Positions 6,802 to 29,552 of a DNA stretch of 64,000 nucleotides are shown here, piece after piece. Each line of letters begins with the position of its first letter. Within the stretch, counting starts at the first letter, position 1. Location: NCBI RefSeq assembly GCF_008271695.1, contig NZ_VKKY01000002.1:558001-622000 (forward strand), read 5' to 3'. Position numbers and translations under genes: made by a program. The stretch comes from Rufibacter hautae. GTDB lineage: Bacteria > Bacteroidota > Bacteroidia > Cytophagales > Hymenobacteraceae. Under the pieces are notes generated by a model. The model worked only from the letters and a program-made list of their open reading frames with translations, was not told the origin of the DNA and made no database searches.

Positions 6802-9180
6802 ATGAAAATACGAAACCTCCCTCTACCATCCTCTCTGCTTATCCTGTTCCTTGTTTTAGGCTCCTGCGCCGTTACCAAGAACGGGGAAGATGTACTCCGT
6901 TACGTGGATCCCAACATAGGTACGGCCCATAGCCGGTGGTTCTTCTACACCCCGGCCGCGGTGCCCTATGGCATGGCCAAGTTGGCTCCCTCCACCAACG
7001 GGCATTACGGAAATAAGGACGGGTGGGAGGCCGTAGGCTACGATACCCGCCACAACTCCATAGAAGGGTTTGTGCATTTCCATGAATGGCAGGTGGGCGG
7101 GGTAAGCTTTATGCCTACGGCCGGAGAGCTCCAAGTAAAACCCGGCGAACTGGAAAACAGCAGAAGCGGCTATCGGTCAGATTTTGACCGGAGAAACGAA
7201 GTGGCGCAGCCAGGCTATTACAAGGTTCTACTGGATGAGTTCAAGATCACCGCCGAGCTGACTGCCACCAAGCACGTAGGGTTTCACCGGTATACTTTTC
7301 CCCAAAACCAGCAATCAAGGATTATCCTGGACATAGGGAACGTGCAGGGCGAGAGCGGTTGGGTGACGGATGCTTCCATTGAAATGGTCGATGATACGCA
7401 TTTCGAGGGTTTTGTCCATACCTACCCGAAATATGTAAAGAAATACGACCCAAAAGGGAAGGTTTCCATGTATTTTTATGGAGAGATAAGCAATAAGCCT
7501 TTGCGCGTGGGCTCATTTACGGAAAAAGGAGTAGAGGCTTCTTCCTCCGTAGCCACGGGCAAAGGAGCCGGGCTCTTCCTGGAATACAATACCCAAAACC
7601 AGGAGGCTATTGAAATCAAAGTAGGGCAATCGTACACGTCCACCCAGAATGCCAAATTGAACCTGTCCGCCGAAGCCGAGAAGCTGTCGTTTGACAAAGC
7701 AAAGGAACAGGCCCAAAGCGCTTGGCGGGAAGAGCTAAACAAGCTGCGGGTAGAAGGCCCTGATGAAAAGAACAAGGTTAAATTCTATACCGGTTTATTC
7801 CATGCTTTACTGGGTCGGGGCGTGGCCAGCGACGTGAATGGCTCCTTCCCCCGGCATGACGGCACGATCGGGCAGCTACCCCGCGACGCGAAAGGAAACT
7901 TTAGCTATAATTTCATGAACACGGACGCCATCTGGGGAGGTTATTGGAACCTGACGCAATTGTGGACCTTGGCCTATCCGCAGCATTACAATGACTTCGT
8001 ACACACCCAGCTACAGGTCTATAAAGAAAGAGGATGGTTCGGTGACGGGATCGCCAACAGTAATTTTGTTTCAGGAGTAGGTACAAACATGGTAGGGTTG
8101 GCCATTGCGGCAGCTTACAATGCTGGAATCAGAGATTATGATACGGAGCTGGCCTATAAAGCAGTGTATGAAAATGAAATGGGCTGGAAAAACAGGGCAG
8201 AGGGTTCCGGTAAAATGGATGTGAAAGCCTTTGTGGAGCGTGGGTACAGTCCTTTTATAGGAGGTGGCAATGAATTCATTACTGATTCCACGGGGTCCAC
8301 GTTTTCGGCGTCCCATACCATGGAGTACGCCTTCAGTGCCTACGCTGCCGCCCAAATGGCAAAATCCATGGGCAAAACAGAAGACTACCAGAAGTTAATA
8401 AAGTATTCAGACGGTTGGAAGCACCTGTTTAACCCACAGTCTAAATTGATACACCCTAAAGACCTCCGGGGCAATTTCATAACCTCGTTTGACCCAAATC
8501 AGGCTTGGAGAGGATTCCAGGAAGGGAATGCCATCCAATATACCTTTTTTGTCCCCCAGAACCCGGAAGCCTTGATCTCTGCAGTCGGCAAAGAGGAATT
8601 TAACACTAGGTTGGATGATATCTTTACCAAATCCCAGAAAAACGCTTTCGGGGGTGGTAAGACCATTGATGCCTTCGCGGGCATCAACTCCCTCTACAAC
8701 CACGGGAATCAGCCTAACCTGCACATAAGCTGGCTCTTTAACTTTTCTGGCAAGCCATGGCTAACCCAAAAATGGACAAGGGCTATCTGCAATGAATTCT
8801 ACGGTACAGAGGGCGTGCATGGCTACGGCTACGGGCAGGACGAAGACCAGGGCCAATTGGGGTCCTGGTATGTCATGGCAGCACTTGGCCTGTTTGACGT
8901 GAAAGGCTTCACTGATGCCAGACCTATCATCCAGATCGGGAGCCCTTTGTTTGACAAGGCCACGATAACCTTAGGGAACCAAAAGAAGCTTGTCATTGAG
9001 ACCAAGAACAACCTGGCAGATAACGTGTATATACAGTCTGCCTCTTTCAATGGGAAGCCTTTGACCAATAACTGGTTGTATCTGGATGAATTAAAGAGAG
9101 GCGGTAAGCTAGAATTTGTCATGGGGAACCAGCCGAATGAAGCCTGGTGCGCTACGGTTCCCCCTTCGGCAGCACAATAG
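6802..9180 (+). CDS. GH92 family alpha-mannosidase-like lipoprotein
   Basis: Glycoside hydrolase family 92, calcium-dependent exo-alpha-mannosidases with an N-terminal beta-sandwich and an (alpha/alpha)6 barrel. 792 residues is typical. The N-terminus has a lipoprotein signal (LFLVLGSC), so it is probably periplasmic or surface-attached. Seen in order: YVDPNIGTAHSRWFFYTPAA, PYGMAKLAPST, a barrel segment with NTDAIWGGYWNLTQLW, and near the C-terminus the catalytic-site loop GQDEDQGQLGSWYVMAALG with Asp680 and Asp682. Most GH92 members read GNDDxGQMSxWYV there, so this is a divergent branch and the linkage or sugar could differ. No SusCD is adjacent. Confidence in family is high, in substrate low. 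Confidence 0.88.
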   Translation: MKIRNLPLPSSLLILFLVLGSCAVTKNGEDVLRYVDPNIGTAHSRWFFYTPAAVPYGMAKLAPSTNGHYGNKDGWEAVGYDTRHNSIEGFVHFHEWQVGGVSFMPTAGELQVKPGELENSRSGYRSDFDRRNEVAQPGYYKVLLDEFKITAELTATKHVGFHRYTFPQNQQSRIILDIGNVQGESGWVTDASIEMVDDTHFEGFVHTYPKYVKKYDPKGKVSMYFYGEISNKPLRVGSFTEKGVEASSSVATGKGAGLFLEYNTQNQEAIEIKVGQSYTSTQNAKLNLSAEAEKLSFDKAKEQAQSAWREELNKLRVEGPDEKNKVKFYTGLFHALLGRGVASDVNGSFPRHDGTIGQLPRDAKGNFSYNFMNTDAIWGGYWNLTQLWTLAYPQHYNDFVHTQLQVYKERGWFGDGIANSNFVSGVGTNMVGLAIAAAYNAGIRDYDTELAYKAVYENEMGWKNRAEGSGKMDVKAFVERGYSPFIGGGNEFITDSTGSTFSASHTMEYAFSAYAAAQMAKSMGKTEDYQKLIKYSDGWKHLFNPQSKLIHPKDLRGNFITSFDPNQAWRGFQEGNAIQYTFFVPQNPEALISAVGKEEFNTRLDDIFTKSQKNAFGGGKTIDAFAGINSLYNHGNQPNLHISWLFNFSGKPWLTQKWTRAICNEFYGTEGVHGYGYGQDEDQGQLGSWYVMAALGLFDVKGFTDARPIIQIGSPLFDKATITLGNQKKLVIETKNNLADNVYIQSASFNGKPLTNNWLYLDELKRGGKLEFVMGNQPNEAWCATVPPSAAQ

Positions 9181-14403: not shown

Positions 14404-14411
14404 TACCTTTG
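14404..14411 (+). promoter_or_regulatory. possible -7 box of the fructan operon
   Basis: TACCTTTG fits TAnnTTTG. No TTG is found at the expected spacing, as may be expected for a promoter that needs its HTCS activator. It argues for translation from ATG 14430 rather than the TTG at 14409, which would lie inside the box. Confidence 0.4.
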
Positions 14412-14429
14412 AGAAAAACATTTAAGTTC

Positions 14430-15767
14430 ATGGTAGGCAAAAAAGTATTCTTCTGGTCCATTGTGGTTGCATTGGGCGGATTCCTGTTCGGGTTTGATAC
14501 CGCGGTTATTTCGGGGGCTGAAAAGGCAATTCAGCAGTTGTGGAACCTGAATGTGTTTGAGCACGGCCTAACGGTGGCCATTGCTTTAGTAGGAACGGTG
14601 CTGGGTTCTTTAACCGGCGGTATTCCCTCAGACAAGTTCGGGCGCAAGAACACCTTATTTGGGATTGCAGTCCTTTATCTATTAGCCTCGGTGGGCACGG
14701 CACTGGCCCCTGACTGGTATACCTTTCTCATCTTCCGCTTCTTAGGCGGAATTGGGGTAGGGGTCTCATCGGTAACAGCTCCACTTTATATCTCAGAAAT
14801 TGCTCCTGCCAAATCAAGGGGCAAACTGGTGGCCTTGTTCCAGTTTAATATCGTGTTCGGGATTCTGATGGCCTATGTGTCCAACTATGCCTTTGCTGGG
14901 CTAGGGGAGCACGACTGGCGCTGGATGCTGGGTATCCAGGCGGTTCCTTCCATTATCTTCCTAGTAACGGTGCTCATGGTGCCTGAAAGCCCAAGATGGT
15001 TGTTGCTCAAGCGCGCTGATAAAGTGGAGGAAGCCAAAAGAACCCTGCAGATTGCCAATCCCGGGGCCAACGTGAACCAGATCGTGGCCGACATCCTCAT
15101 CTCGGCGCAGGAGCGCGACGACCATGGCAACAAGCCGGCTTTGTTCTCTAAAAAATATTCCCTACCCATTACCCTAGCGGTGCTGTTCGCCTTCTTCAAC
15201 CAGGTATCGGGCATCAACGCCATCATTTATTACGCGCCGCGCATTTTTGAAATGGTAGGTTTGGGGCAGGAATCGGCGTTGCTTTCCTCGGCGGGCATTG
15301 GGTTGGTGAACTTCCTTTTCACGCTTTTGGCCATGAACGTGATTGACCGGTTCGGTCGGCGCTCGCTCATGCTCATTGGGTCTGTGGGGCTAATCCTTAC
15401 TTTGGCTTTGGTAGCGAAGGCTTTCTACCTGGAGGAATTCAACGGCATAGCAGTTCCCATCTACCTGTTTGTATACATTGCCTTCTTCGCCTTCTCCCAA
15501 GGAGCGGTGATCTGGGTGTTCATCTCTGAGATTTTCCCTAACCAGGTGCGCGCCTCGGGTCAGGCCTTGGGCAGCTTCACTCACTGGATCATGGCTGCCA
15601 TTATCGCCTTCAGTTTCCCTTATATCTCAGAGACCCTGGGCGGCGGCAATACCTTCCTCATCTTCACCGGCATGATGGTGCTGCAACTCCTGTTTGTATG
15701 GCGCCTGATGCCGGAGACCAAAGGTACCTCCCTGGAGAAAATTGAAAAAAGCGTTGTATTCCATTAA
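14430..15767 (+). CDS. MFS sugar porter, probable fructose importer
   Basis: Inner-membrane 12-helix transporter of the sugar porter (GLUT/XylE) subfamily, likely proton-coupled. 445 residues from ATG 14430. Diagnostic motifs: GGFLFGFDTAVISGA in helix 1, the DKFGRK loop between helices 2 and 3, a PLYISEIAPAKSRGKL segment, PESPRWLLLK after helix 6, QVSGINAIIYYAP in helix 7, DRFGRRSLM and the C-terminal PETKGTSLE. It is the first gene of the fructan operon, 12 bases before fructokinase, which mirrors BT1757/BT1758 in B. thetaiotaomicron. Substrate fructose is inferred from context. Confidence 0.92.
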   Translation: MVGKKVFFWSIVVALGGFLFGFDTAVISGAEKAIQQLWNLNVFEHGLTVAIALVGTVLGSLTGGIPSDKFGRKNTLFGIAVLYLLASVGTALAPDWYTFLIFRFLGGIGVGVSSVTAPLYISEIAPAKSRGKLVALFQFNIVFGILMAYVSNYAFAGLGEHDWRWMLGIQAVPSIIFLVTVLMVPESPRWLLLKRADKVEEAKRTLQIANPGANVNQIVADILISAQERDDHGNKPALFSKKYSLPITLAVLFAFFNQVSGINAIIYYAPRIFEMVGLGQESALLSSAGIGLVNFLFTLLAMNVIDRFGRRSLMLIGSVGLILTLALVAKAFYLEEFNGIAVPIYLFVYIAFFAFSQGAVIWVFISEIFPNQVRASGQALGSFTHWIMAAIIAFSFPYISETLGGGNTFLIFTGMMVLQLLFVWRLMPETKGTSLEKIEKSVVFH

Positions 15768-15779
15768 TCCTTAGCCTGT

Positions 15780-16691
15780 ATGAACCAGAAGATAGTTTGT
15801 TTCGGAGAAACCTTATGGGATATCCTGCCCAGCGGAAGAATGCCAGGCGGCGCCCCCATGAACGTGGCCATCCACTTGCACCACAACGGTTTTGATCCGG
15901 TGGTGGTGAGCCGGGTAGGCAGCGATGACCTGGGAAAAGAACTCGTGGCTTTTCTGCAGGAGCAGAAGATTAACACAGATTACCTGCAGACCGGGCAGAC
16001 CCACCTCACCGGCATTGTAAAAGCCAATATCTCAGACCGCAACGAGGTCACTTACAAAATTGTGGAACCCGTGGCCTGGGACTACATCCAATTAGAGGAG
16101 CGCACCGCGCAATTGGTTTCTGAGAGCGACCTTTTCATTTATGGAAGCCTGGTAGCCCGCGGCGCCACCTCCCAGGATGCCTTGCTGCAATACCTGTCCT
16201 TGGCCCAGAAGAAAGTTTTTGACGTGAACCTTCGGCCGCCGCATTACACTACTGAGCGGGTATTGGCTCTGTTAGGCCTAGCCGATATCGTGAAAATGAA
16301 CCACCAGGAACTGGCCGAGATCTGCACCTGGCTGGGAACCGAGGGCGACATGGTGCAGCAGATGCAGTTCATCAAAGAGCATTTCGGGCTGGAGCTAGTC
16401 ATTGTGACCCGCGGCGATGAAGGAGCCGCGGCTTTCTCCCAAGATGGGTTCTTTGAGCATGAAGGCTTCCAGGTAGAGGTAGAAGACACCATTGGCAGCG
16501 GCGATGCATTCTTGGCCACGTTTCTAACCAACCATCTCCAAGGCAAGCCCATGAACCAAATCCTGGAGAGAGCCTGCCTTATTGGGGCGTATGTAGCCAC
16601 CCAACGGGGAGCCACGCCCACCTATGACCCTGCCAGCATCACCCCAGATTCTCTGAAGAAAGACACGCAACCTTATAAGCTTCACATCTAA
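15780..16691 (+). CDS. fructokinase, PfkB family
   Basis: Cytoplasmic ribokinase-family enzyme, predicted to phosphorylate fructose to fructose-6-phosphate with ATP. 303 residues. Seen: N-terminal IVCFGETLWDILPSGRMPGG, GAPMNVAIHLHHNG for sugar binding, VSRVGSDDLGKELVAFL, FDVNLRPPHY in the middle, and the ATP/anion-hole motif DTIGSGDAFLATF with catalytic Asp242. The GE.LWD.LP.G start is typical of fructokinases rather than ribokinases. It lies 12 bases after the transporter and 13 before susC, so it is co-transcribed with both. Confidence 0.92.
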   Translation: MNQKIVCFGETLWDILPSGRMPGGAPMNVAIHLHHNGFDPVVVSRVGSDDLGKELVAFLQEQKINTDYLQTGQTHLTGIVKANISDRNEVTYKIVEPVAWDYIQLEERTAQLVSESDLFIYGSLVARGATSQDALLQYLSLAQKKVFDVNLRPPHYTTERVLALLGLADIVKMNHQELAEICTWLGTEGDMVQQMQFIKEHFGLELVIVTRGDEGAAAFSQDGFFEHEGFQVEVEDTIGSGDAFLATFLTNHLQGKPMNQILERACLIGAYVATQRGATPTYDPASITPDSLKKDTQPYKLHI

Positions 16692-16704: not shown

Positions 16705-19700
16705 ATGAAAAGATTCCTACACCTAGTCCTCATTTTGTTCTGCATGGCTCAGGCCGTGAAAGGACAAGATGTAGGGGAGATAACCGGGCAGGTTGTTTCA
16801 GCTGATAAGAATGAGCCATTGATAGGAGTATCTGTGGTAGTAAAAGGAACCACCACGGGTGCGGCGACAGATGCCGACGGCAGATTCACGGTAAGAGCAG
16901 CCAGCAACTCCATATTAGTGGTGACCTACATCGGTTTCCTCTCGCAGGAAGTACCCGTGAACGGCAGAAGTAATGTACAGATCAGCTTGCAGACTGACGC
17001 CAAAGCCCTGGAAGAAGTAGTAGTGACCGGTTATACCAGTGAGAAAAAAGCTGACATCACCGGCGCAGTATCTGTGGTGAAGATGAAAGATATCACCAGC
17101 ATTCCAACTGGTAACGTAATGTCTTCTCTGCAAGGTCGCCTACCTGGCGTAACCGTAGTGAACGACGGAACACCAGGCGGGGTAGGAACAGGGGTTTCTA
17201 TCAGAGGTATTACCACCATCAATAACAGTACTCCTTTGTATGTAGTGGATGGCGTGCAAACGAGGGCCAATGTGGCCACGCTGTTGAACGCGAATGATGT
17301 GGAGTCCATTCAGGTATTGAAAGATGCCGCTTCGGCTTCCATTTACGGTACCCAGGCGGCTAACGGGGTAATCATCATCACCACCAAGAAAGCCAAGCAA
17401 GGCGAAATCAAGGTCGATTTTGACGCGCAGCTAAGCGCTCAGTACTTCCACACCGGCATAAAAATGCTCAATGCCCAGCAATGGGGAGATGTTTACTGGA
17501 AAGCATACCAGAATGACGGAGTCCAGCCCCGCCATGATCAATATGGTAGCGGACCTACCCCGGTGATCCCTGAGTTCATTGATCTGAACAAAACCATCAG
17601 AGCTGGCAATACCAACTGGGCAGATGAGGTGTATAAAACCGCGCTTCTCCAGAACTACAACGTGTCAGTTTCCAAAGGATCAGAAAACGGATCTGCCTCG
17701 CTCTCCTTCAATTACTTTGACCAGGATGGTTTGATCAAGTACACCAATTTCAACCGGTACAATGTGCGCTTGAACTCAGACTATGGCTTTTTCAAAAACA
17801 GGCTTAGAATAGGAGAGAATGTAAATGTGAGCAGATGGACTGAGAAGTTCAAGCCCGGCGGAGTTGAAGAATTAGTGATAGCCCAACACCCCTTAATTCC
17901 GGTGTATGATATCAATGGGGGCTATGCCGGACCCACGCAGGGTCTTGGTGACAAGCCCAATCCCATCCGGTTGTTGAATCAGCAAAGAGAGAACCGATCC
18001 AACCAATGGCGGATCTTCGGTAACCTGTTCGCTGAATTGGAGCCGATAAAAAACCTTCGGTTGAGAACAAACTTGGGTCTGAATTACAACAATAGCTTCG
18101 CCTCTAATTTTGAGCCCAGATGGAGAGAAGGGGACCGCACCGTTGACCTAAATATACTGAATGTCACCAACGGCAATAACCTGGAATACATTTTCACCAA
18201 CACGGCTAACTACACAGCTCAATTAGGCGAACATTCCTTTTCTGCCTTGGCGGGCATGGAGGCCAAAGAATATACCAGCGAAGAGCTTTTCGGCCGCCGG
18301 GTTAATTTCCTGATTGAAGACATAGATTATCGGTACCTGAACGGGGGAAGTGGCGCGCAACTGAATGGGAACTCAGCTTCCCGCACTGCCATGGTTTCCT
18401 ACTTCGGGAAAGTGAACTATGCCTTCATGGATCGTTATCTGCTATCCGGAACCGTGCGGCAGGATGCTTCCTCTAGGTTCGGGAAGAACAATAATGAGGC
18501 CGTGTTCCCGGCTGTCTCCGCTGGTTGGAGAATCAGTGAGGAAAGTTTCCTGAAAGATGTTTCTATCCTAACAGACCTTAAACTGAGAGCAAGCTGGGGT
18601 AAGACCGGGAATGACCTGATGGATAATGAGGCTACGTATACCAAGTACGGCATTAACCTTAACACCGCCGGCTATGACTTGGGCGGCGTGAACCAGGGGG
18701 TGATCCCAACCGGCATTGTGAAAATCAGGTCCGGAAACCAGAATATCAAATGGGAGGTAACCACCCAAACCAATTTTGGGGTTGACCTAGCCATGCTGAA
18801 CAACCGGTTGAATGTGACCCTAGACTACTTCAATAAGGACACCGAAGACATGTTGATTGATCGGCCTTATATAGCCATCATTGGCGAAGGTGGGTACATG
18901 GCCTACAATGGTGCCTCCATGAATAACAAAGGGTTTGAAAGCATCATTAACTGGCGCAGCAGCATTGGTAGCGATTTCAACTATGACATTACCCTCACCG
19001 GTTCTGTCTACAAAAACAGGATCACCTCTTTGCCAGAAGACATCTTGTATACCTGGGGTGGCGGTAACGGGCTTGATCAAAGCATTGTAGGCCAACCAAT
19101 AGGATCCTGGATGGGATATAAAACCAATGGCCTATACCGCACCGAGGCAGACTTGAACGATGAAATAGACCAGCCAGGCAAGGGCTTGGGCCGGATCCGC
19201 TATGTAGACATCAACGGAGACAAGGTGATTGACAACAAGGATAGAACCTGGTTGGGTACTGACCTTCCTAAGTTCACCGGCGGCTTGAATCTGGGCATGA
19301 ACTACAAATCTTTTGATGCCTCCATCTTCTTTACCGGCATGGTAAGAGATGCCTGGAACAACGCCAGGTTCTACACAGATTTCTTCCAGCTTTGGACCGG
19401 AAACCATGGCACCAGATTGCTTGATGCCTGGAACCCAGAAGAGAACTTTGACTCAGACATTCCAGCCTTGACTGCGGTGAACCTGAATGATGAAGGGCGT
19501 GGGTCAGAATACTTCATTGAAAACGGCTCCTACCTTAAATTGAAGAACCTGGTGGTAGGATATACTTTACCTGCCACAATTTCAGGGAAAATTCGGGTGA
19601 AAACGCTAAGAGCTTATCTACAGGCCCAAGACTTGTTCACCCTGACGAAATACACCGGCGCAGATCCTGAGACCCTGGGGTATCCTTACCCAATTCCGCG

Positions 19701-19734
19701 CACGGTCACTTTTGGGGTAAATGTTGGTTTCTAA
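16705..19734 (+). CDS. SusC-like TonB-dependent outer-membrane transporter
   Basis: 1009-residue SusC family receptor that imports oligosaccharides through the outer membrane, working as a pair with the lipoprotein downstream. A signal peptide (about 1-20) is followed by a carboxypeptidase-regulatory-like domain (EITGQVVSADKNEPLIGVSV, about 25-95), a plug with the SusC signature SIRGITTINNSTPLYVVDGV and a 22-strand beta-barrel ending in an aromatic residue (TFGVNVGF). The TonB box region lies around EEVVVTGY. Position after fructokinase and before susD and the GH32 genes indicates fructan oligosaccharides as cargo (inference). Confidence 0.95.
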   Translation: MKRFLHLVLILFCMAQAVKGQDVGEITGQVVSADKNEPLIGVSVVVKGTTTGAATDADGRFTVRAASNSILVVTYIGFLSQEVPVNGRSNVQISLQTDAKALEEVVVTGYTSEKKADITGAVSVVKMKDITSIPTGNVMSSLQGRLPGVTVVNDGTPGGVGTGVSIRGITTINNSTPLYVVDGVQTRANVATLLNANDVESIQVLKDAASASIYGTQAANGVIIITTKKAKQGEIKVDFDAQLSAQYFHTGIKMLNAQQWGDVYWKAYQNDGVQPRHDQYGSGPTPVIPEFIDLNKTIRAGNTNWADEVYKTALLQNYNVSVSKGSENGSASLSFNYFDQDGLIKYTNFNRYNVRLNSDYGFFKNRLRIGENVNVSRWTEKFKPGGVEELVIAQHPLIPVYDINGGYAGPTQGLGDKPNPIRLLNQQRENRSNQWRIFGNLFAELEPIKNLRLRTNLGLNYNNSFASNFEPRWREGDRTVDLNILNVTNGNNLEYIFTNTANYTAQLGEHSFSALAGMEAKEYTSEELFGRRVNFLIEDIDYRYLNGGSGAQLNGNSASRTAMVSYFGKVNYAFMDRYLLSGTVRQDASSRFGKNNNEAVFPAVSAGWRISEESFLKDVSILTDLKLRASWGKTGNDLMDNEATYTKYGINLNTAGYDLGGVNQGVIPTGIVKIRSGNQNIKWEVTTQTNFGVDLAMLNNRLNVTLDYFNKDTEDMLIDRPYIAIIGEGGYMAYNGASMNNKGFESIINWRSSIGSDFNYDITLTGSVYKNRITSLPEDILYTWGGGNGLDQSIVGQPIGSWMGYKTNGLYRTEADLNDEIDQPGKGLGRIRYVDINGDKVIDNKDRTWLGTDLPKFTGGLNLGMNYKSFDASIFFTGMVRDAWNNARFYTDFFQLWTGNHGTRLLDAWNPEENFDSDIPALTAVNLNDEGRGSEYFIENGSYLKLKNLVVGYTLPATISGKIRVKTLRAYLQAQDLFTLTKYTGADPETLGYPYPIPRTVTFGVNVGF

Positions 19735-19763: not shown

Positions 19764-21503
19764 ATGAAATATAACTGCATAATCATAGCATTACTTCTTG
19801 TCTTCACTTCCTGCTCAGATGATTTCCTGGAGTCAAAGCCCAAGGGAACGCTAAGTGAGGACATCCTGAAGTCACCCAATGGGGTAGAAGCGCTTTGTAC
19901 GGCTGCCTACTCGGCTTTGGCCGGCCCAGAAGGGTCAGATGCTGCTTTCTTATCGCCTACCTCTAACTGGATTTATGGCGAGGTACGGGCCGAGACCGCA
20001 TATAAAGGGGGAGGCGGGATTGGGGATATAGGGGAATACCATGCCTTTGAGACTTTTACCGGTGTTTTCGCCAACAACGGGTTATTAGACCGGAAATGGT
20101 ACCACCTATACATCAGCGTGCAACGCGCCAACAGCGCCATCAGGGTGCTGAATGCCATGACTGATGAGCAGTTTCCTTTGAGAAATGTAAGGCTGGGCGA
20201 GATGAGATTTCTCCGGGCCCATTATTACTTTGAGCTGAGCCGCCTGTTCAACAAGATCCCTTACTTTGATGAAAATGTTCCCACTGAAGAACACATCAAC
20301 ATCAAGAATGATGAGTTCACCCGCGACCAGATCTTGGAAAAGATTGCAAGTGAATTTGCCGCGGCCGCAGCGGTCTTGCCACTTACCCAAACTGAAAAAG
20401 GAAGAGCCAATAAGTATGCTGCCCTGGCTTACCAGGCCAAAGCAACCTTATACCGCGCCTATAAGCAGGACGAAAACCACAACGTCATCAGTGTAGACCA
20501 AGGTTTGATGAGCCAGGTGGTGAGTCTTTGCGACCAGGTTGCCCAAGGCGGATATGATTTATTGCCCGATTTTCAGCAGTTATCTATGGTGGAGCACGAA
20601 AACGGAATCGAGTCAATTTTCTCTATTCAGTACTCCATCGGCGACGGAACCACCAACGGACGCATTAACTGGAGCAACCTGTTGAATGCCCCTAAAGGTC
20701 CTGCCTATAACGGGGATGGTTTTTACCAACCTAGCCAAAATCTGGTGAACTCTTATAAGACAGATGCTAATGGTTTGCCACAACTGCAAACCTACAACAA
20801 CACCGATCTGGTGACGGTACAGGATGCCTTCCAGACTTCAGTTGATCCCCGCCTGGACTTTACCGTGGGCCGCTTGGGAATCCGCTGGAAAAACTTTACC
20901 GGTGGCCCATACAATGAATCCTGGGTGCGTGAACCAGCAACTTATGGCTACTACAGCACCAAGAAGTTCCTAGTGTCGCCGGAGTCGCCTTACATGGTGA
21001 AAGGCTGGCCTTGGGGAGGATCGGCGCTTAACCATCAGATCATCCGCTACGCCGATGTTTTGCTTTGGAAAGCCGAGGCGCTGATTGAACTAGGACGGGA
21101 AATGGAAGCAGTGCCTTTGATTAACCGAGTGCGGGAAAGAGCCAAGAACAGCAAGTATGTTCTCGCCTGGAATAATGCTGGCCCAACAGATTACGCTGCC
21201 AACTACAAAATTGAGCCTTATCAGCCCGGCACCAACGTGAACTGGACACAGGATTTCGCCCGCCAAGCCCTCCGGTTTGAGCGCAAGTTGGAGCTGGCCA
21301 TGGAAGGGGAGCGCTTCTTTGACCTGGTACGGTGGGGAATCGCGGAGCAGGTGCTGAACACTGAATACTTTGCGCAGGAAAAAGATGTGAGAACTTACCT
21401 GCAAAACGCCCGCTTTGTGAAAGGCCGTGATGAGTACTTCCCAATCCCGCAGGCCCAGATCAACTTCTCTGCCGGCCTCTACACCCAGAATCCCGGGTAT
21501 TAA
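19764..21503 (+). CDS. SusD-like surface glycan-binding lipoprotein
   Basis: 579-residue SusD/RagB family lipoprotein that forms the lid of the SusC channel and binds glycan at the surface. The lipobox VFTSC is followed by SDDFLESKPKGTLSED, the standard SusD start. Then come the TPR-like helices (RAHYYFELSRLFNKIPYFDE), and at the C-terminus RFERKLELAMEGERFFDLVR and FPIPQAQINFS, both typical. The start is 29 bases after the susC stop. No third surface protein of the SusE/F type is encoded nearby. Confidence 0.95.
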   Translation: MKYNCIIIALLLVFTSCSDDFLESKPKGTLSEDILKSPNGVEALCTAAYSALAGPEGSDAAFLSPTSNWIYGEVRAETAYKGGGGIGDIGEYHAFETFTGVFANNGLLDRKWYHLYISVQRANSAIRVLNAMTDEQFPLRNVRLGEMRFLRAHYYFELSRLFNKIPYFDENVPTEEHINIKNDEFTRDQILEKIASEFAAAAAVLPLTQTEKGRANKYAALAYQAKATLYRAYKQDENHNVISVDQGLMSQVVSLCDQVAQGGYDLLPDFQQLSMVEHENGIESIFSIQYSIGDGTTNGRINWSNLLNAPKGPAYNGDGFYQPSQNLVNSYKTDANGLPQLQTYNNTDLVTVQDAFQTSVDPRLDFTVGRLGIRWKNFTGGPYNESWVREPATYGYYSTKKFLVSPESPYMVKGWPWGGSALNHQIIRYADVLLWKAEALIELGREMEAVPLINRVRERAKNSKYVLAWNNAGPTDYAANYKIEPYQPGTNVNWTQDFARQALRFERKLELAMEGERFFDLVRWGIAEQVLNTEYFAQEKDVRTYLQNARFVKGRDEYFPIPQAQINFSAGLYTQNPGY

Positions 21504-21736: not shown

Positions 21737-23224
21737 ATGGGCAATCTCAAAGGATTAGTTGCTACGTGCCTTTTAGGGATCAGTGCCACTGTTGGCTTCG
21801 GGCAGAAAGCGGCTCCTGAGGTGTATAAGGAGCCTTACCGGCCCCAGTACCATTTCAGCCCGGCCAAAGGATGGATTGGCGACCCCTGCGGTTTTATGTA
21901 CTACCAAAACAAATACCACATGTTTTGGTGGGGCAAGGTCACCTCAGAAGATCTGGTGCACTACAAAGAGGAATCGCCCAAAGTAATGAAAGGCGACAGC
22001 GGAGGGATTGCCTACTTCACCGGCTCGGCCTTGGTAGACAAAGATAACACCGCCGGCTTCGGACCTAACACCCAGATAGCGGTCTACACCCTCTTCAATG
22101 AAAAGACGAAGAACCAATCACAGGGTATTTCCTTCAGCAAGGACGGCAAAACCTTCCAATACTATGAGGGGAACCCGGTGCTGGATATCGGCAGTACCGA
22201 GTTCCGCGACCCCACGGTGTTCTGGCATGCGCCTACCTCCAAGTGGGTGATGGTGGTGGCGAAAGCCCTGGAAAAGAAAATAAAGTTTTACTCCTCTCCT
22301 GACTTGAAGAAGTGGACCTGGCTTAGTGATTTCGGGCCGAAAGGAGCCCAGGAAAAAGCTTGGGAATGCCCGGATATTTTCCAGCTTTCGGTAGACGGAA
22401 ATCCGGATAAAAAGAAATGGGTGATGGTGGTGTCCATTGACTGGGCCAGAGAGCAATACTTCATGGGCGATTTTGACGGGACCAACTTCACCCTGGACAA
22501 AGACCATCCGGAACATCCGCTTTATGTAGACCAGGGACTTGATTTTTACGCCTCCCGCACCTTCATGGATTTTGACAATACCCTCAAGACCACAACTTCT
22601 TTGGGGTGGGTAGCCACCTGGGATTACGCGCCCTTGGCTCCCACCAGTTGGGGGAAAGGCTTTTGGTCCATCCCCCGAGACCTGGAATTGAAAACTTTCC
22701 CGGAAGGAGTGCGCCTGGTGCAGAAGCCCATCAAAAACTTGGAGACGCTCAGAGAATCGCAGGTTTCTTTCAAGCAGAAACTGAGCAAAGGAACCGAAGC
22801 CCTGAAGAAATTTGCCCCCACGGAGAATGTGTATGAACTGGACGCTACCTTCTCCACGGAGGTAGAGAATACGGTTGGGTTCAACCTTTGCGTGGGCAGC
22901 GGCAGGAAAGTGGCCGTGAGGTATGACACCAGAACGCAGCTTTTGACCATTGACCGCACCAACTGTTCTGATGTTCCCATTGAGAAATTTGCCCGGACCA
23001 CTTCCGCCAAAGTAACGCCAGTCAAGGGCAAAGTCAGGATGCATTTTTACGTGGATAAATCCAGTATTGAGCTTTTTACCAACGAAGGGAAAGAAGTCTT
23101 CACCCTGCTTACTTACCCCGCAGACACGCAGACCGGAATAGAAACTTTTGCAGAAAAGGACGGAACCAAACTTGAGTTGACGGCTTACAAACTAAAATCC
23201 ATTTGGAACAACAGCAAGCTATGA
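21737..23224 (+). CDS. divergent GH32 enzyme with WIGDPCG motif
   Basis: Secreted GH32 five-bladed beta-propeller protein (fructosidase or fructosyltransferase class), 495 residues. The signal peptide (MGNLKGLVATCLLGISATVG, likely cut after FG) has no lipobox. The nucleophile motif, normally WMNDPNG, here reads GWIGDPCGFMYY with Asp49 kept but both Asn residues and Met changed. The transition-state stabiliser is present as EFRDPTVFW (Asp158), and the acid/base as AWECPDIF (Glu210). A C-terminal beta-sandwich (about 350-490) ends with VDKSSIELFTNEG. All three catalytic acids are present, so it should be active, but altered -1 subsite residues point to a product or linkage different from ordinary exo-fructosidases. 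Confidence 0.88.
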   Translation: MGNLKGLVATCLLGISATVGFGQKAAPEVYKEPYRPQYHFSPAKGWIGDPCGFMYYQNKYHMFWWGKVTSEDLVHYKEESPKVMKGDSGGIAYFTGSALVDKDNTAGFGPNTQIAVYTLFNEKTKNQSQGISFSKDGKTFQYYEGNPVLDIGSTEFRDPTVFWHAPTSKWVMVVAKALEKKIKFYSSPDLKKWTWLSDFGPKGAQEKAWECPDIFQLSVDGNPDKKKWVMVVSIDWAREQYFMGDFDGTNFTLDKDHPEHPLYVDQGLDFYASRTFMDFDNTLKTTTSLGWVATWDYAPLAPTSWGKGFWSIPRDLELKTFPEGVRLVQKPIKNLETLRESQVSFKQKLSKGTEALKKFAPTENVYELDATFSTEVENTVGFNLCVGSGRKVAVRYDTRTQLLTIDRTNCSDVPIEKFARTTSAKVTPVKGKVRMHFYVDKSSIELFTNEGKEVFTLLTYPADTQTGIETFAEKDGTKLELTAYKLKSIWNNSKL

Positions 23225-23329: not shown

Positions 23330-25693
23330 ATGAGTAATAGAAGCATTACATCCTTGACCTTACGAGTGCTGCCGCTGGTTTCCGTTTTAGGCCTCTTTTC
23401 GGCAAATTTGGTTCAAAACAGCGAGAAGGACCTCACCGCTTTTTGGGCCTTTGATGAAGGAAAAGGCAAAGTAACCCAGGACGCCAAGGCACCACAGAAA
23501 GATAGCATCCATTACATTTTCAACCAGGCCAAATTCAAGCCCAGCAGTGATCCTTTGTGGCGGAAAAGCGGGATAGCAGGAGGGGCGCTCTTATTTGATG
23601 GGTACTCTACCTGGATAGAAAGACCGGAAACCTCCTTCAAAACTCCCACCAATGCCATTACGGTTAGTGTGTGGGTGGCCCCGCGCTTCTTTGAACATGG
23701 TCAGGAGGAAAAACTATCGGCCATCGTAAACCAGCAAAACAAAGAGAAGAAGGAAGGTTTTGCCTTGGGCATGTACCGCCACGGACGCATTTCCTTTCAG
23801 GTAGGCACGGGCCAGGATTGGTTGGAAGTGTGGGAGGAGAAAAACCTGCTGCCCAGAAATACTTGGTCTCATGTGGTAGGTACCTATGACGCCAAAACCG
23901 GCCTTGCCGCTTTATACCTGAACGGGAAGAAAGTAGCCGAAAAAAGCTTGGCGAAGGACGCTGGGGAGAAGTTGATTAAACCTTCTTCCGAGAAGCTGCT
24001 AATTGGCAAACACAACCAGAATGTGAAACTCGCCCGGTACTTTGACCTGAATATGTTCAATGGGCTCATGGATGAGCTAAAGATTTATGGCAGAGCTTTG
24101 TCTCCGGCAGATGTCCAGAAATCTTACCTAGCGTACCTAAAGCCGCATGGCATGAAAGTTCCTATGATAAAGCCTCAGGATATCAACCTGAATTCCGAGG
24201 AACTTGCCGGGGATAGGCACCGGCCGCAGTTTCATGCCATGCCGCCGGCCCATTGGATGAATGAGCCCCATGCCCCTTTTTATTATAAAGGCAATTACCA
24301 TCTGTTTTATCAACAAAATCCTTTGGGTCCTTACTGGGGGCAAATTCACTGGGGGCATTGGGTAAGCCCGGACCTGGTGCACTGGAAAGCCTTGCCTCCC
24401 GCCTTGTACGCCGAGAACGACACCTTGTCGCCGGACGGTATTTGGTCCGGGAGCGCCAGCTATGACGAGAAGGGGGACCCGGTTTTGTTCTTCACGGCCG
24501 CCAATGACAAAGCCTCGCCCAACCAGCGGGTAGCCATGGCCAAGCCCAAAGATATCAAAGACCCTTTGCTGGTGGAATGGCAGAAATACCCCAAACCCCT
24601 GATCACCCAGAAGAAAGGCATAGGCCTATTCGGGGAATTCAGAGATCCGTTTGTATGGCGTGATGAAACTGATAAAAAATGGTATTTGCTCAATGGCTCC
24701 GGCTTGCCCGGCAACGGAGGCACTGCTTTGCTATACAGTTCCAAAGACCAGGTAAACTGGGAATACCACGGACCTTTCTACAGCTTTAACTATCAGCAGA
24801 ATCCACACCTGGGACCCATCTGGGAGTTGCCCGTTTTCCTGCCCATCGGGAAGTATCCGAACGGAGAGAAGAAGTACATCTTCCTGGTGAGCCCCGTTGG
24901 CAAGGGAGCCGATGTAGAGGTGTATTACTGGCTGGGCCGATTTGATAAAGCCCAGTTCAGATTTGTGCCGGACCAGGAGGCGCCGCAGCTAGTAGATTTA
25001 GGAGATTTCCATTTCACCGGCCCCAGCGGCATGGTTGACCCTAAAACCGGACGGGCGATAGTCTTCACCATCGCCCAGGGCAACCGGAATTCGCAGGACG
25101 AACATGCCGCCGGTTGGGCACATAACGCGGGCTTACCCGCCCATTTGTCTTTGCATGATAATGGAAGGTTAAGAGTAGAACCCATTGAGGAGTTAAAGTC
25201 CCTACGGAAGAAAGAACTCGTAAACTTCACCGGCAAAAAATTATCTGAGGCGAATCAGTTGCTCGCTAATGTGAAAGGCCCCATGATGGAAATTGAGGTG
25301 GAGATCAATCCGCTGCAGGCCCAGAAATTCGGGATGAAAGTAGGCTGCTCTCCTAACGGGGAAGAAGAGACCCTGATCTACTATGATAAAACAACGGGTA
25401 AACTCATGGCTGATCGGACCAAAACCAGCAAGACCAGAAAACAGGGATTGGAAGGCGGAAAGCTGGACATCGGGAAGGAGAATCTGAAGCTCCGCATCTA
25501 CCTGGATCATTCCATGGTGGAAACCTACGCTAACTCCTACAACAGCCTCACCACCCGCATGTATCCTTCCCTGGAGGATGCTTTAGGCCTGAAAGTGTGG
25601 GCCGACCAAGATGTGATGATTGAGAAAATGCGGGTGTGGGAGTTGATGCCCATGACCGAGAACCCGGAACCTGACAAAGCTAAAGGCTTCTGA
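23330..25693 (+). CDS. LamG-GH32 fusion with Glu in the nucleophile position
   Basis: 787-residue exported protein. An N-terminal hydrophobic signal (about 1-27) precedes a LamG/concanavalin-like domain (about 35-270: LTAFWAFDEGKGKV, AITVSVWVAP, WSHVVGTYDAKTG, LMDELKIYGRALSP), then a GH32 catalytic domain (about 300-620) and a C-terminal beta-sandwich. The nucleophile motif reads HWMNEPHAPFYY, with Glu312 where most GH32 enzymes have Asp. The stabiliser FRDPFVWRD has Asp439, and the acid/base loop is WELPVF (Glu499) with Leu replacing the usual Cys. Fungal endo-inulinases also use a WMNEPNG form, so an endo-type cleavage is possible. The LamG domain probably binds polymer. Confidence 0.9.
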   Translation: MSNRSITSLTLRVLPLVSVLGLFSANLVQNSEKDLTAFWAFDEGKGKVTQDAKAPQKDSIHYIFNQAKFKPSSDPLWRKSGIAGGALLFDGYSTWIERPETSFKTPTNAITVSVWVAPRFFEHGQEEKLSAIVNQQNKEKKEGFALGMYRHGRISFQVGTGQDWLEVWEEKNLLPRNTWSHVVGTYDAKTGLAALYLNGKKVAEKSLAKDAGEKLIKPSSEKLLIGKHNQNVKLARYFDLNMFNGLMDELKIYGRALSPADVQKSYLAYLKPHGMKVPMIKPQDINLNSEELAGDRHRPQFHAMPPAHWMNEPHAPFYYKGNYHLFYQQNPLGPYWGQIHWGHWVSPDLVHWKALPPALYAENDTLSPDGIWSGSASYDEKGDPVLFFTAANDKASPNQRVAMAKPKDIKDPLLVEWQKYPKPLITQKKGIGLFGEFRDPFVWRDETDKKWYLLNGSGLPGNGGTALLYSSKDQVNWEYHGPFYSFNYQQNPHLGPIWELPVFLPIGKYPNGEKKYIFLVSPVGKGADVEVYYWLGRFDKAQFRFVPDQEAPQLVDLGDFHFTGPSGMVDPKTGRAIVFTIAQGNRNSQDEHAAGWAHNAGLPAHLSLHDNGRLRVEPIEELKSLRKKELVNFTGKKLSEANQLLANVKGPMMEIEVEINPLQAQKFGMKVGCSPNGEEETLIYYDKTTGKLMADRTKTSKTRKQGLEGGKLDIGKENLKLRIYLDHSMVETYANSYNSLTTRMYPSLEDALGLKVWADQDVMIEKMRVWELMPMTENPEPDKAKGF

Positions 25694-25737: not shown

Positions 25738-27831
25738 ATGAAAACCAGTGTCTGGATAAGGTTCATTCTTGCTACATTCTTGCTGCAATGGCTGGCCTTA
25801 TCGGCTTTTTCGCAGGGAGCCCTGAGTTATGTAGATCTGGTGAACCGCCTGCATGATTTGGAGTATCTGGCAACTCCTCCCCATAAAGACGAGAAATCGG
25901 GTAGTTTTTCCAGTTATGACCGAAGATCAAGGTATGATGCTGTCACCAACACCTATGAAGCCTGGGGGGCTAACGGCGATGGCTCAGGGTATATCAGAAA
26001 AGAAGGCAAGGACATAGTGGTGTTTGAGCAGGAAGGACCTGGGGTAATCTGGCGTTTTTGGAGCGCTTTGGCAAAAGAAGGCCATATCAAAATCTATATT
26101 GATAACCAGCCCGTACCCGTGGTGGACAAACCCTTCCGTGATCTTTTTGAAACTGTAGGGAATGAGGTTCCGCCTATGAACTACCCCAACCTTGTTATGA
26201 CCTTGTCCAGGGGTAGAAATCATTACTTGCCTATTTCTTACAGTAAGCACTGCAAAATAGTGCTGTCAGAAAATTGGGGTGCCTATTATCATATAACTTA
26301 TACATCTTTGCCTAAATCCACTACGATTCCCTCTTTTACAGGTACTTACACCAAGCAGGAGAACTTCGCCTTAGCACAGACAGACAGAACCTTAGGGTCG
26401 CGGGGGTATGAACGAAAACATTATGACAAGGAAGTAGTAGAGACCCGCCAGGTAAAGGCCACTCCCAACGCTGAAGTGCTCTTGAGGGAGGTGCAGGGAA
26501 ATAAAGCGATATCCTATTTTAAGGTCAATTTTGATAATTTCCTCACAAAACAGGAAAAACAAAGTTTAATCAAAAACCTGTGGCTTAGCATCACCTGGGA
26601 CAATGACAAGACGCCCTCCGTGTTAACTCCCTTAGGAGTTTTCTTTGGCACAGCACCAGAAGTATATTCTTATCGGTCCCTTCCGGTGGGCGTCATCAAT
26701 ACTTCTTTCTATTCCAACTGGTGGATGCCTTTTTCAAAATCCGCCAAGATCAAATTGATTAACAAAGGTAGTGTGCCTTATGATATAGGCTTCACCTTAG
26801 TCACGGTACCACTATCAGAATCCGCGGATAGCTTGATGCGCTTCCACGCAATCTGGCACCAGGGCCTGAACAGACAGGAACAGATCAGCACAATAAAACC
26901 GCAGGACGTTTTACTGGCAGATTTTGAAAAAGGCAACTATTCTGGCTGGGAAGTGTCTGGAAACGCCTTCGGGAAGAATCCTGTCAAAGGCACGCTGCCT
27001 AACCAAAGCCCGGTAAGTGATTTCAAAGGCTCTTACCTGGTGAACTCCTACCTGAATGGGGACTCTTCTATCGGCACCCTGACCTCCAGGAAATTCTCCA
27101 TTAACAAACGATACATTAATTTCCTGATCGGCGGAGGCAGCCATTTGAATAAGACGGGCCTGCAATTGCTAGTGGATGGGAAGGTGGTACGCACCGCTAC
27201 CGGAATGGAGTCAGAGCAGCTCTTTCCTGTCTCTTGGGATGTAGCGGAGTTCAAAGGGAAACAAGCCGTGCTTAAAATCATGGATCTTGAAACAGGAGGG
27301 TACGGGCATATCCTAGTAGATCAAATTACCTTAAGTGACCAGAACATCGCCCGCACCGATGGCCGCGCATTGGATTGGACTTTTCTGGATGTAAAAGGAA
27401 AAGGTCGGTTCTGCGGATTGACCTTGCATGTAGAGAACACTTGGGAAGAACCCAGGCAGGAAAGCGAAACCTGGTGGTACGGAAAATGGGATAAGAAAAC
27501 CATTGACTGGTGGTGGGGCGAAGGGGATGAGAAATTTTTTGTGGACGGGGAAAAGTTTCCTTCCACCTACGGGACCGGGAGCGAGGATTACATTGGATAT
27601 GCCTGGTCTGCAGAACCGCCGTTCCCCGTATTTGACAGCCCTTTTGCCAGCCAACCATTTACCGCCCTTACCGGAAACGGCCACACCATTGTGAACCGGT
27701 TCCACATAGCCGATAACGTTCCTTTCCAGAACTCCTTTGAAGGAAATCTGGAGAAGTATAAACTGAATAACTGGGGCAAAAACAATCGCTGCCTATTTGA
27801 TGCGGTGGTGTACTGGTACCAGATGCCCTGA
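25738..27831 (+). CDS. GH172 (DUF2961) enzyme with inserted fructanase-type beta-sandwich
   Basis: Secreted protein, 697 residues from ATG 25738, chosen because the signal peptide MKTSVWIRFILATFLLQWLA begins there. DUF2961 defines family GH172, whose known members act on alpha-fructofuranosides (difructose dianhydride I synthase/hydrolase) or D-arabinofuranosides. The first part (about 30-390) has SSYDRRSRYD, GPGVIWRFWSA and YPNLVMTLSRG; the last part (about 540-697) has the family signature YGTGSEDYIGYAW (Glu616). Between them, about 393-535, sits a module reading ADFEKGNYSGWEVSGNAFGK, FLIGGG, LLVDGKVVRTATG and GYGHILVDQI. That pattern is the beta-sandwich found in SacC-type levanases of GH32. 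A GH172 split by this module, within a fructan operon, ties it to fructan breakdown. Confidence 0.85.
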   Translation: MKTSVWIRFILATFLLQWLALSAFSQGALSYVDLVNRLHDLEYLATPPHKDEKSGSFSSYDRRSRYDAVTNTYEAWGANGDGSGYIRKEGKDIVVFEQEGPGVIWRFWSALAKEGHIKIYIDNQPVPVVDKPFRDLFETVGNEVPPMNYPNLVMTLSRGRNHYLPISYSKHCKIVLSENWGAYYHITYTSLPKSTTIPSFTGTYTKQENFALAQTDRTLGSRGYERKHYDKEVVETRQVKATPNAEVLLREVQGNKAISYFKVNFDNFLTKQEKQSLIKNLWLSITWDNDKTPSVLTPLGVFFGTAPEVYSYRSLPVGVINTSFYSNWWMPFSKSAKIKLINKGSVPYDIGFTLVTVPLSESADSLMRFHAIWHQGLNRQEQISTIKPQDVLLADFEKGNYSGWEVSGNAFGKNPVKGTLPNQSPVSDFKGSYLVNSYLNGDSSIGTLTSRKFSINKRYINFLIGGGSHLNKTGLQLLVDGKVVRTATGMESEQLFPVSWDVAEFKGKQAVLKIMDLETGGYGHILVDQITLSDQNIARTDGRALDWTFLDVKGKGRFCGLTLHVENTWEEPRQESETWWYGKWDKKTIDWWWGEGDEKFFVDGEKFPSTYGTGSEDYIGYAWSAEPPFPVFDSPFASQPFTALTGNGHTIVNRFHIADNVPFQNSFEGNLEKYKLNNWGKNNRCLFDAVVYWYQMP

Positions 27832-27935
27832 GAAAAAAGATGTATGACAAGTTCACAGCATCGGTTTTAAAGGCCGGTTTTGCCAAAACAGATCAAAAAC
27901 ACGCAATCAACAATAAACTAAACAAACCAAATGAT

Positions 27936-29552
27936 ATGAATCGCAAGCCCGCCTTTTACCTTTTAAGTGCGCTCCTCCTGGCCGGAGGAGCGAGTTGTAA
28001 CCTCGGCAAGGAAGCAGAAACCAGAACAACCCAGGCGCAAGTTAATAAGGTGACGACCGAACAGCACCGGCCGCAGTTTCATTTCACGCCTCCTTCCAAA
28101 TGGATGAACGATCCCAACGGCATGGTGTACCACAAAGGCGAATACCACCTGTTCTACCAGCACCACCCCGGCAGCACTACCTGGGGACCTATGCATTGGG
28201 GCCACGCCGTGAGCAAGGACATGGTAAATTGGGAGCACCTGCCCATCGCGCTCTACCCCGATGAACTGGGCACCATTTTTTCGGGCAGCGCCGTGGTGGA
28301 CGTGAACAATACTTCTGGTTTAGGCACTAAGGAGAACCCGGCTATGGTGGCCATTTACACGTACCACAGCGAGAAACTGGAGAAGGCTGGCAGAAATGAT
28401 TTCCAAACCCAAGGCATGGCTTACAGCCTGGACAACGGCCGCACTTGGAAGAAATACGAGCAGAACCCCGTGGTCAAGAACCCCGGCATCCGCGATTTTC
28501 GGGACCCGAAAGTCTCTTGGAACGAGAAAGCTGGCCAGTGGGTCATGACCCTGGCGGTTTTGGACCACATTGAATTTTACGGCTCTAAAAACCTGAAGGA
28601 TTGGACCAAATTGAGCGAGTTCGGGAAGACGGCGGCGGCGCACGGCGGGGTGTGGGAGTGCCCGGATTTGTTTCCGCTTACGGTGAACGGTCAGCTGAAA
28701 TATGTGTTGCTCGTGAGCCTGAACCCGGGCGGACCCAACAAAGGCTCGGCTACCCAATACTTCATCGGGGACTTTGACGGCAAGACCTTCAAAAGCGACA
28801 ATCCGCTGGAAACCACATTCTGGCTGGATTACGGTACTGATAACTACGCCGGGGTTACCTGGGACAACGTACCTAAATCTGATGGCCGACGCCTGTTCCT
28901 GGGTTGGATGAGCAACTGGCTGTACGCGAACGAGGTGCCCACCGCTTCCTGGCGCAGCGCCACCACGGTACCCCGTGAACTCACCCTTCGGCAGACGAGC
29001 GAAGGCGTGAGATTGTTCAGTGCCCCGGTGAAAGAACTGCAGAAACTACGCGCCGGCACTACGTTTGTCAAAGCACAGGAAGTGAGCGGCACCCTGGACC
29101 TAAGCAATCGCTATAACCTGAATTCTCCTTTGCTGGAACTTGACCTGAATTTGGATGTAGCCCAAGCGCAGAACGTGGTCCTCCGGTTCTCCAACAACAA
29201 AGGCGAACACCTGGAGGTAGGCTACAACCCGGCGCAAAAAGAACTGTTCATTGATCGCACAAAGGCGGGCAAAACCGATTTCAAAGACACGTTCCCGGGC
29301 CGGCACACCGCGCCTTTGACGCTGGAGAACGGCAAATTGCGACTGCACCTGCTGCTGGATGTGGCTTCCATAGAGGTGTTCGCGAACGAGGGGAAAACCG
29401 TCATGACCGATATCTTCTTCCCCAACGAGGACTTCACCAAAGTGGAACTGGTGTCTACCGGAACCACCCGGTTACTAGATAGCAAGGTCTACAAACTCAA
29501 GCCCGCGAGCGGGAGCGAAACAGCCTCCACCAAGGTTTCTGACATCCGCTAA
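27936..29552 (+). CDS. GH32 exo-fructanase (levanase/inulinase/invertase type)
   Basis: 538-residue GH32 protein from ATG 27936, where a signal peptide ending LLLAGGASC begins; this suggests a lipoprotein although the lipobox is not ideal. The catalytic sites are canonical: WMNDPNGMVYHKG (Asp59), DFRDPKVSW (Asp190) and VWECPDLF (Glu241). Other family blocks: LFYQHHPGSTTWGPMHWGHA, IFSGSAVVD, FLGWMSNW, TTVPRELTL and the C-terminal sandwich with DVASIEVFANEG. It is expected to release fructose from beta-fructans or sucrose in the periplasm or at the surface. Last gene of the fructan operon, followed by a strong terminator. Confidence 0.94.
   Translation: MNRKPAFYLLSALLLAGGASCNLGKEAETRTTQAQVNKVTTEQHRPQFHFTPPSKWMNDPNGMVYHKGEYHLFYQHHPGSTTWGPMHWGHAVSKDMVNWEHLPIALYPDELGTIFSGSAVVDVNNTSGLGTKENPAMVAIYTYHSEKLEKAGRNDFQTQGMAYSLDNGRTWKKYEQNPVVKNPGIRDFRDPKVSWNEKAGQWVMTLAVLDHIEFYGSKNLKDWTKLSEFGKTAAAHGGVWECPDLFPLTVNGQLKYVLLVSLNPGGPNKGSATQYFIGDFDGKTFKSDNPLETTFWLDYGTDNYAGVTWDNVPKSDGRRLFLGWMSNWLYANEVPTASWRSATTVPRELTLRQTSEGVRLFSAPVKELQKLRAGTTFVKAQEVSGTLDLSNRYNLNSPLLELDLNLDVAQAQNVVLRFSNNKGEHLEVGYNPAQKELFIDRTKAGKTDFKDTFPGRHTAPLTLENGKLRLHLLLDVASIEVFANEGKTVMTDIFFPNEDFTKVELVSTGTTRLLDSKVYKLKPASGSETASTKVSDIR

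Follow-up and report, generated by a model that had tools for sequence, protein, structure and literature searches.

The GH172 (DUF2961) enzyme encoded at 25738..27831 of the window (the whole 64,000-nucleotide stretch of DNA analyzed here) is interrupted within its catalytic domain by an inserted module, predicted to fold as a CBM-like β-sandwich, and its gene lies among the parts of a fructan-type PUL. With roughly even confidence, we read this protein as a retaining α-D-furanosidase for fructan-derived sugars, carrying a wandering, uncatalogued CBM-like module that was gained after the split from a relative in the same genus. The anatomy of the protein, given below, is near certain.

25738..27831, + strand: GH172 (DUF2961) enzyme with inserted module, 697 aa
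26083..26364, + strand: extra N-terminal DUF2961 half, profile positions 5-104, aa ~116-209 (Pfam profile)
26572..26871, + strand: complete DUF2961 domain, first part, aa ~279-378 (Pfam profile)
26872..27366, + strand: whole insert with linkers, aa ~379-543 (empty site in orthologues; AlphaFold2 model)
26902-27357, + strand: module core, aa 389-540 (same evidence as the whole insert)
27367..27828, + strand: DUF2961 second part, with acid/base E595 and nucleophile E616 (alignment to 7v1v)
27439..27510, + strand: aromatic-rich loop, aa ~568-591, directly before WWGEGDEKF (alignments)

The gene is where the original prediction had placed it, with all four of the motifs quoted there present in the 697-aa open reading frame, the N-terminus of which, judged by eye, looks like a Sec signal peptide. 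DUF2961 is the sole Pfam family in the protein (E = 2.4e-66, three stretches), and the PF11175 score of 224 bits, against a cut-off of 27, places it in GH172. In the genome-level search, the DUF2961 stretches fell at about aa 116-209, 279-407 and 544-695; the complete domain consists of about aa 279-378 and 544-695, and the N-terminal stretch is an additional half domain. The earlier description of DUF2961 halves flanking a module was correct with respect to the insertion and its placement, whereas the domain boundaries had to be redrawn and the extra half added. The profile match between the window protein and αFFase1 (7v1v) is 5.9e-58, and in the alignment with this structure, E270 and E291 correspond to E595 and E616, with W267, D292 and W298 likewise conserved; E270 is the acid/base and E291 the nucleophile of αFFase1 according to the available part of PMC8605356. 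By hand-counted positions on the same alignment, Tyr187 of the −1 site of αFFase1 is replaced by a glycine within VPYDIGF, and Lys147 of the +1 site falls in a stretch absent from the window protein; the region around Glu85 (+1 site) is not alignable.

Outside the module, the full-length AlphaFold2 model (pLDDT 81.5) resembles GH172 structures, and the protein is predicted to have the double jelly-roll fold. Foldseek ranks 1-7 for this model are GH172 chains of 8ah3, 4kq7, 7v1v and 8ic8 (E from 1.6e-20 to 5.3e-15), with TM scores of 0.50-0.63 by target and just 0.32-0.35 by query. In this model, built from a composite alignment with a few orthologue residues scattered over the module columns, pLDDT drops below 50 in the linkers (378-385 and 539-544), and confidence is likewise poor for some of the module and of the active-site region (572-592, 620-626).

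Taken alone, the module was modelled by AlphaFold2 (40-row alignment) as a β-sandwich of ten strands with pLDDT 93.4, in agreement with the earlier expectation of an independent sandwich. No Pfam or NCBIfam match was found in the window segment (aa ~386-544), and none of the 40 module rows matched a Pfam family at E 0.01. This includes DUF4980 (PF16352), to which the module does not belong (0 of 40 rows, Pfam) and which in L068 is a separate region at 190-282, following the module at 31-171. No PDB sequence matched the window segment at E up to 1; the module profile gave four weak matches to PDB sequences (best E 0.055), none of them CBM61, CBM16 or the porphyran CBM. No module relative was detected in viral contigs, and no such insert was found in the open-licence PMC literature, which is weak evidence of absence.

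The top Foldseek matches of the module are MAM, reelin, cyclase and CBM chains. VIA-align 2 ranked a porphyran-binding CBM (8XMZ) first (Z 12.8, 2.6 Å over 126 residues), followed by CBM61 (Z 11.4) and CBM16 (Z about 11); reelin and meprin MAM regions scored only slightly lower. The 8XMZ porphyran CBM, TmCBM61 (2XOM) and CBM16 have the same β-sandwich (VIA Z about 11-13 over 122-136 residues) at only 9-17% identity to the module, i.e. the likeness is one of fold alone. Because MAM and reelin domains score nearly as high as CBMs, these matches indicate a shared fold and not a ligand; by its predicted structure, the module is a CBM-like sandwich whose fold does not tell what it binds.

The insertion site is empty in the aligned orthologues. 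In all 12 aligned orthologues from outside the genus, which come from genomes sampled around one Kiritimatiellae and one Phycisphaerales centre, as well as in the same-genus relative L245 (genome G1311), a short loop joins FHAKW.. to ..DW..GRGRFCG; by tblastn, the GH172 halves are adjacent, with no space for the module, in all 18 outside loci that hold both. L245 is a 552-aa protein without the insert, 58.7% identical to the window protein over 535 aligned residues, in a locus that also encodes SusC, SusD and two GH32 enzymes. When the module columns were left out, the tree placed the window GH172 and L245 as sisters (100/100), within a group that otherwise consists of outside genomes and two distant Bacteroidota rows. 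Among the 16 genomes of this genus in a sample of 79 relatives, a close orthologue is present only in those of the window and G1311. Wider samples yielded no further one: neither 341 genomes from the order (E 1e-30), nor 140 from the class (E 1e-30; the second match there is module-only), nor 395 from the phylum (E 1e-15; the remaining matches are distant paralogues or module-only). The GC3 of the window GH172 gene (0.51-0.58) is slightly below that of most locus neighbours (0.58-0.69). The simplest reading would be that the GH172 gene was acquired by transfer and gained the module after the split from L245. Comparison of the flanks for target-site repeats at the insert edges found no common word of 7 or more bases.

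Two other features differ among these orthologues. The aromatic loop at aa ~568-591 is common to the window GH172 and L245; the other 12 aligned orthologues either lack it or have a different one. MiXBM is a xanthan-binding module. An extra C-terminal region resembling it (7ehg, E 3.8e-11, profile) is present in 10 of the 12 outside orthologues (L199, L200, L201, L203, L204, L207-L210 and L212), the other two being a protein that ends early (L205) and one that was trimmed (L206); the window GH172 and L245 are without it.

The genes around the window GH172 include the following:

6802-9180: GH92 enzyme, upstream of the fructan locus (Pfam)
11043..13841, + strand: hybrid two-component sensor with a periplasmic-binding-protein domain (Pfam)
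14409..15767, + strand: MFS sugar transporter (Pfam Sugar_tr)
15780..16691, + strand: PfkB-family kinase, probable fructokinase (Pfam)
16705..19734, + strand: SusC-like TonB-dependent receptor (Pfam)
19764..21503, + strand: SusD-like protein (Pfam)
21737..23224, + strand: GH32 enzyme without module (Pfam; insertion site compared)
23330..25693, + strand: LamG + GH32 enzyme (Pfam)
27840..29552, + strand: GH32 enzyme without module (Pfam; orthologues in G1307, G1313 and G1310 carry the module)

The hybrid sensor, MFS transporter, PfkB kinase, SusCD pair and three GH32 enzymes are parts of a fructan-type PUL, as the original prediction of a fructan operon held. The levan locus Bt1754-65 of B. theta has the same kinds of parts, and its sensor binds fructose (PMC7782687, available part); by this resemblance, a fructan role of the window GH172 is plausible. 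The earlier proposal of an α-linked, fructan-derived substrate likewise retains plausibility from locus and family, but cannot be derived from the module. Within the genus, the two close GH172s identified both sit in fructan loci, and L245, unlike the outside orthologues, has GH32 neighbours. Because ORF calling overlooked the L202 and L211 GH172 genes, the neighbour comparison was done by tblastn on all 20 outside loci, of which 19 hold GH172 sequence and one (L214) only a GH32 with the module. No clear GH32 neighbour was found in the 19 loci (4.7-19 kb, four of them shorter than 7 kb); there were weak GH32 matches in L218 (1e-8) and, marginally, L215 (5e-4). The L206 locus encodes a GH116 with the module.

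The distribution of the module was analyzed in a main set comprising the best 80 of 159 relatives from a genome-contig scan, in which the share of GH32 is biased upward because one row of the two-row query came from a GH32. In this GH32-leaning sample, the hosts are GH32 enzymes in 60 of the 80 loci, GH116 in 16, HZS-alpha-like cytochromes in three and a GH172 with a C-terminal module in one, so that 77 of the 80 are glycoside hydrolases; host classes were assigned mostly by phmmer against window or locus sequences, with Pfam confirmation of GH32 on six of the 60 and on L003, while all 20 non-GH32 hosts were run against Pfam, which confirmed GH116 on 16. The window module and these 60 GH32 hosts thus have a sequence family in common, and the best matches did not prove unrelated to fructanases, the result that would have counted against the original prediction. 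Among the GH32 hosts in the best 80, phmmer placed the module N-terminal to the propeller in 41 and within the propeller in 14, or 19 with five nested cases included; among the 16 Bacteroidota-labelled GH32 hosts, it is inside the propeller in 10 and before it in six. GH116 sequence flanks the module on both sides in 15 of the 16 GH116 hosts, and only precedes it in L096, which is truncated by a contig end. The five nested cases (L025:4645-7386, L036, L050, L059 and L073), all from Actinomycetota, have within the GH32 propeller the first half of a module, a full copy and the second half of the same module, the break in each case being in one and the same loop, which follows the GGG-x-H motif.

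L213 encodes another GH172 whose module is C-terminal. L046 and L213, the two C-terminal cases, cluster together in both the module tree and the GH172 tree, apart from the window's, so that GH172 probably acquired the module on two or more occasions. A common origin of the window module with the C-terminal ones is not supported, given their own clade and different position.

In the second set (GH172 query, two phylum samples, best matches kept as loci), the module was seen in 42 of the 46 loci given, with GH32 as the host in 20, GH116 in nine, HZS in two, GH172 in one and other proteins in 10; the four of these ten that were examined are PSCyt/PSD1, GH81 (two) and DUF7133 proteins. In L178 and L196-L198, the module lies mid-protein in PSCyt/PSD1-type cytochrome proteins; in L178, the one of these four scanned with Pfam, it is between the PSCyt2 and PSD1 regions. 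The segment matched at E 0.001 in 20 of the 395 phylum-sample genomes, the window genome included, many of the matches being weak and in PKD-, RCC1- or dehydrogenase-like proteins (host names assigned by eye from the sequences). Three module copies occur in one 1728-aa frame of G025 (L005/L022/L023). The window genome contains a single clear module copy, the one in the GH172; the next match has E 0.7.

The CBM66 of B. subtilis SacC binds levan. The original assignment of the window module to SacC-type GH32 levanases captured the commonest host but was too narrow: because the module also occurs in GH116, GH81, cytochrome-like (including PSCyt/PSD1), GH172, DUF7133 and other proteins, it is not fructanase-specific and by itself does not predict fructan.

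Within the genus, the relatives of the neighbouring GH32 (27840-29552) are 67-82% identical, and the module is inside the propeller in G1307, G1313 and G1310 (loci L239-L241), and missing in G1308, G1306, G1311 and G1315 and in the window GH32 itself; the G576 copy has internal stops and no gap for the module. On the 31-row GH32 tree, in which two long branches (L100 and L076) are joined and call for caution, module presence changes four times, with at least three of these changes forced by well-supported branches. The identity of same-genus modules to the window's is 50-53% for four GH32-borne copies, 38-44% for a second type and 30-34% for two tandem copies, and the best identity elsewhere is 57-59%; neither the genus nor the best 80 of 159 relatives yielded a near-identical donor. 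In the module tree, the window module is a long unresolved branch without a starred grouping. A recent copy from a same-genus sibling GH32 is not supported, the modules there being 30-53% identical. In one GH32 of the genus (L239:6363-10091), the catalytic part is followed by a tandem pair of diverged module copies.

Since the module comes and goes between orthologous fructan enzymes of one genus, PUL enzymes may swap modules by internal insertion. The internal sites comprise the GH32 propeller, the N-terminal region of GH116, the GH172 jelly-roll loop and, in Actinomycetota, the module's own copy. Tentatively, and with somewhat less than even confidence, we suggest that these modules form an unnamed wandering CBM-like family, often located inside other folded domains rather than at their ends, through which PUL enzymes exchange binding modules.

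For the window GH172, we favour the following scenario. A gene for a secreted, anomer-retaining α-D-furanosidase of the 1.5-DUF2961 form would have joined a levan/fructan utilization locus, the retaining mechanism being that expected from the family. Later, a CBM-like sandwich of ~150 aa would have been inserted in a loop near the start of the second catalytic jelly roll, from a pool of wandering, uncatalogued modules riding mostly inside or beside GH32 enzymes. The role of the module is likely non-catalytic: it may hold glycan near the GH172 pocket with E595 as the acid/base and E616 as the nucleophile, perhaps to the advantage of the enzyme, and the pocket would then meet fructan-derived oligosaccharides released by the neighbouring GH32s and remove α-D-fructofuranosyl or α-D-arabinofuranosyl ends that GH32 cannot cut.

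With regard to the module, the idea that the segment belongs to the GH172 barrel has next to no probability and is rejected, as the original prediction had anticipated: the site is empty in all 13 aligned orthologues, the same module occurs in unrelated proteins and folds alone in prediction, and no point in favour was found. It is conceivable, although doubtful in our estimation, that the module binds no glycan and is a structural spacer or oligomerization element, spreading because it is easily inserted into loops, where it would be tolerated because its two ends are close together. Its presence in unrelated folds (GH32 propeller, GH116 N-terminal region, its own fold), its location next to or amid cytochrome-type domains, for which a sugar-binding role is not evident, its gain and loss between close GH32 orthologues and the variable oligomer state of GH172s (PMC10115798, available part) would fit such a role, whereas the best VIA-align 2 matches being CBMs and the predominance of glycoside hydrolases among the main-set hosts argue for carbohydrate binding.

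With regard to the substrate, the fructan reading has against it the outside-genus orthologues without a clear GH32 neighbour, the module in non-fructan hosts and the non-conservation of Tyr187 and Lys147 of αFFase1. The enzyme might instead be an α-D-arabinofuranosidase, or another α-furanoside enzyme, whose placement among fructan genes reflects a mixed substrate and not fructan itself. The characterized GH172s cut α-D-Araf (PMC10115798 and PMC8605356, each in the part available), the orthologues outside the genus are away from GH32, and residues of the difructose +1 site either lack a counterpart or do not align; yet both close GH172s of the genus are in fructan loci and have the aromatic loop beside the active-site motif, and we regard this alternative as rather unlikely. 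The version put forward originally, with DFA I or inulobiose as the substrate in cooperation with β-fructosidases, draws on the conserved catalytic pair and on αFFase1, which performs such chemistry and adjoins a GH32 in B. dentium (PMC8605356, available part), but finds no support in the sequence and appears improbable, weakened as it is because Tyr187 is a glycine and Lys147 has no counterpart, with Glu85 not alignable. The locus, moreover, resembles the levan type. DFA IV, the levan-derived difructose anhydride, is β,β-linked, which also speaks against this substrate.

The window gene ties a GH172 to a levan-type locus in Bacteroidota and widens the question of what α-fructofuranosidases are for. 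The module, which is defined by sequence and matched no Pfam family in any of the 40 rows scanned, is a marker of carbohydrate enzymes in several phyla, and its distribution indicates that modules of this kind can pass from one enzyme to an unrelated one. Natural pairs with and without the module exist within one genus for GH32 and GH172 alike, and thus the effect of an internally inserted CBM-like module on an enzyme can be tested directly, including whether the module carries fructan affinity from GH32 onto an unrelated fold.

Among known systems, B. thetaiotaomicron Bt1754-65 resembles the window locus in its PBP-type hybrid sensor, MFS transporter, fructokinase, SusCD and GH32s, but has no GH172 among the parts named in PMC7782687 (available part). 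αFFase1 (BBDE_2040, PDB 7V1V) is similar to the window GH172 in its DUF2961 jelly rolls, catalytic Glu pair, counterparts of W267, D292 and W298, and GH32 neighbour; it differs in having one DUF2961 domain, no inserted module and no signal peptide, and in Tyr187 and Lys147. DgGH172b, compared by description only, is, like the window GH172, a Bacteroidota PUL enzyme with an additional half DUF2961 domain (the '1.5 DUF2961 domains' form), whereas its locus is a D-arabinan PUL, and the GH172 enzymes characterized in the same paper act on α-D-arabinofuranosides (PMC10115798, available part). Fusions of DUF2961 to GH32 or to carbohydrate-binding domains have been reported (PMC8812541, available part). 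Closest in the module itself are GH32 enzymes with a propeller module (L041 from Nafulsella, L003 and L239-L241), where it is 43-57% identical to the window's and joined by short linkers; the host fold there is the propeller of the fructan-active GH32 family, in contrast to the jelly rolls that carry the module in the window.
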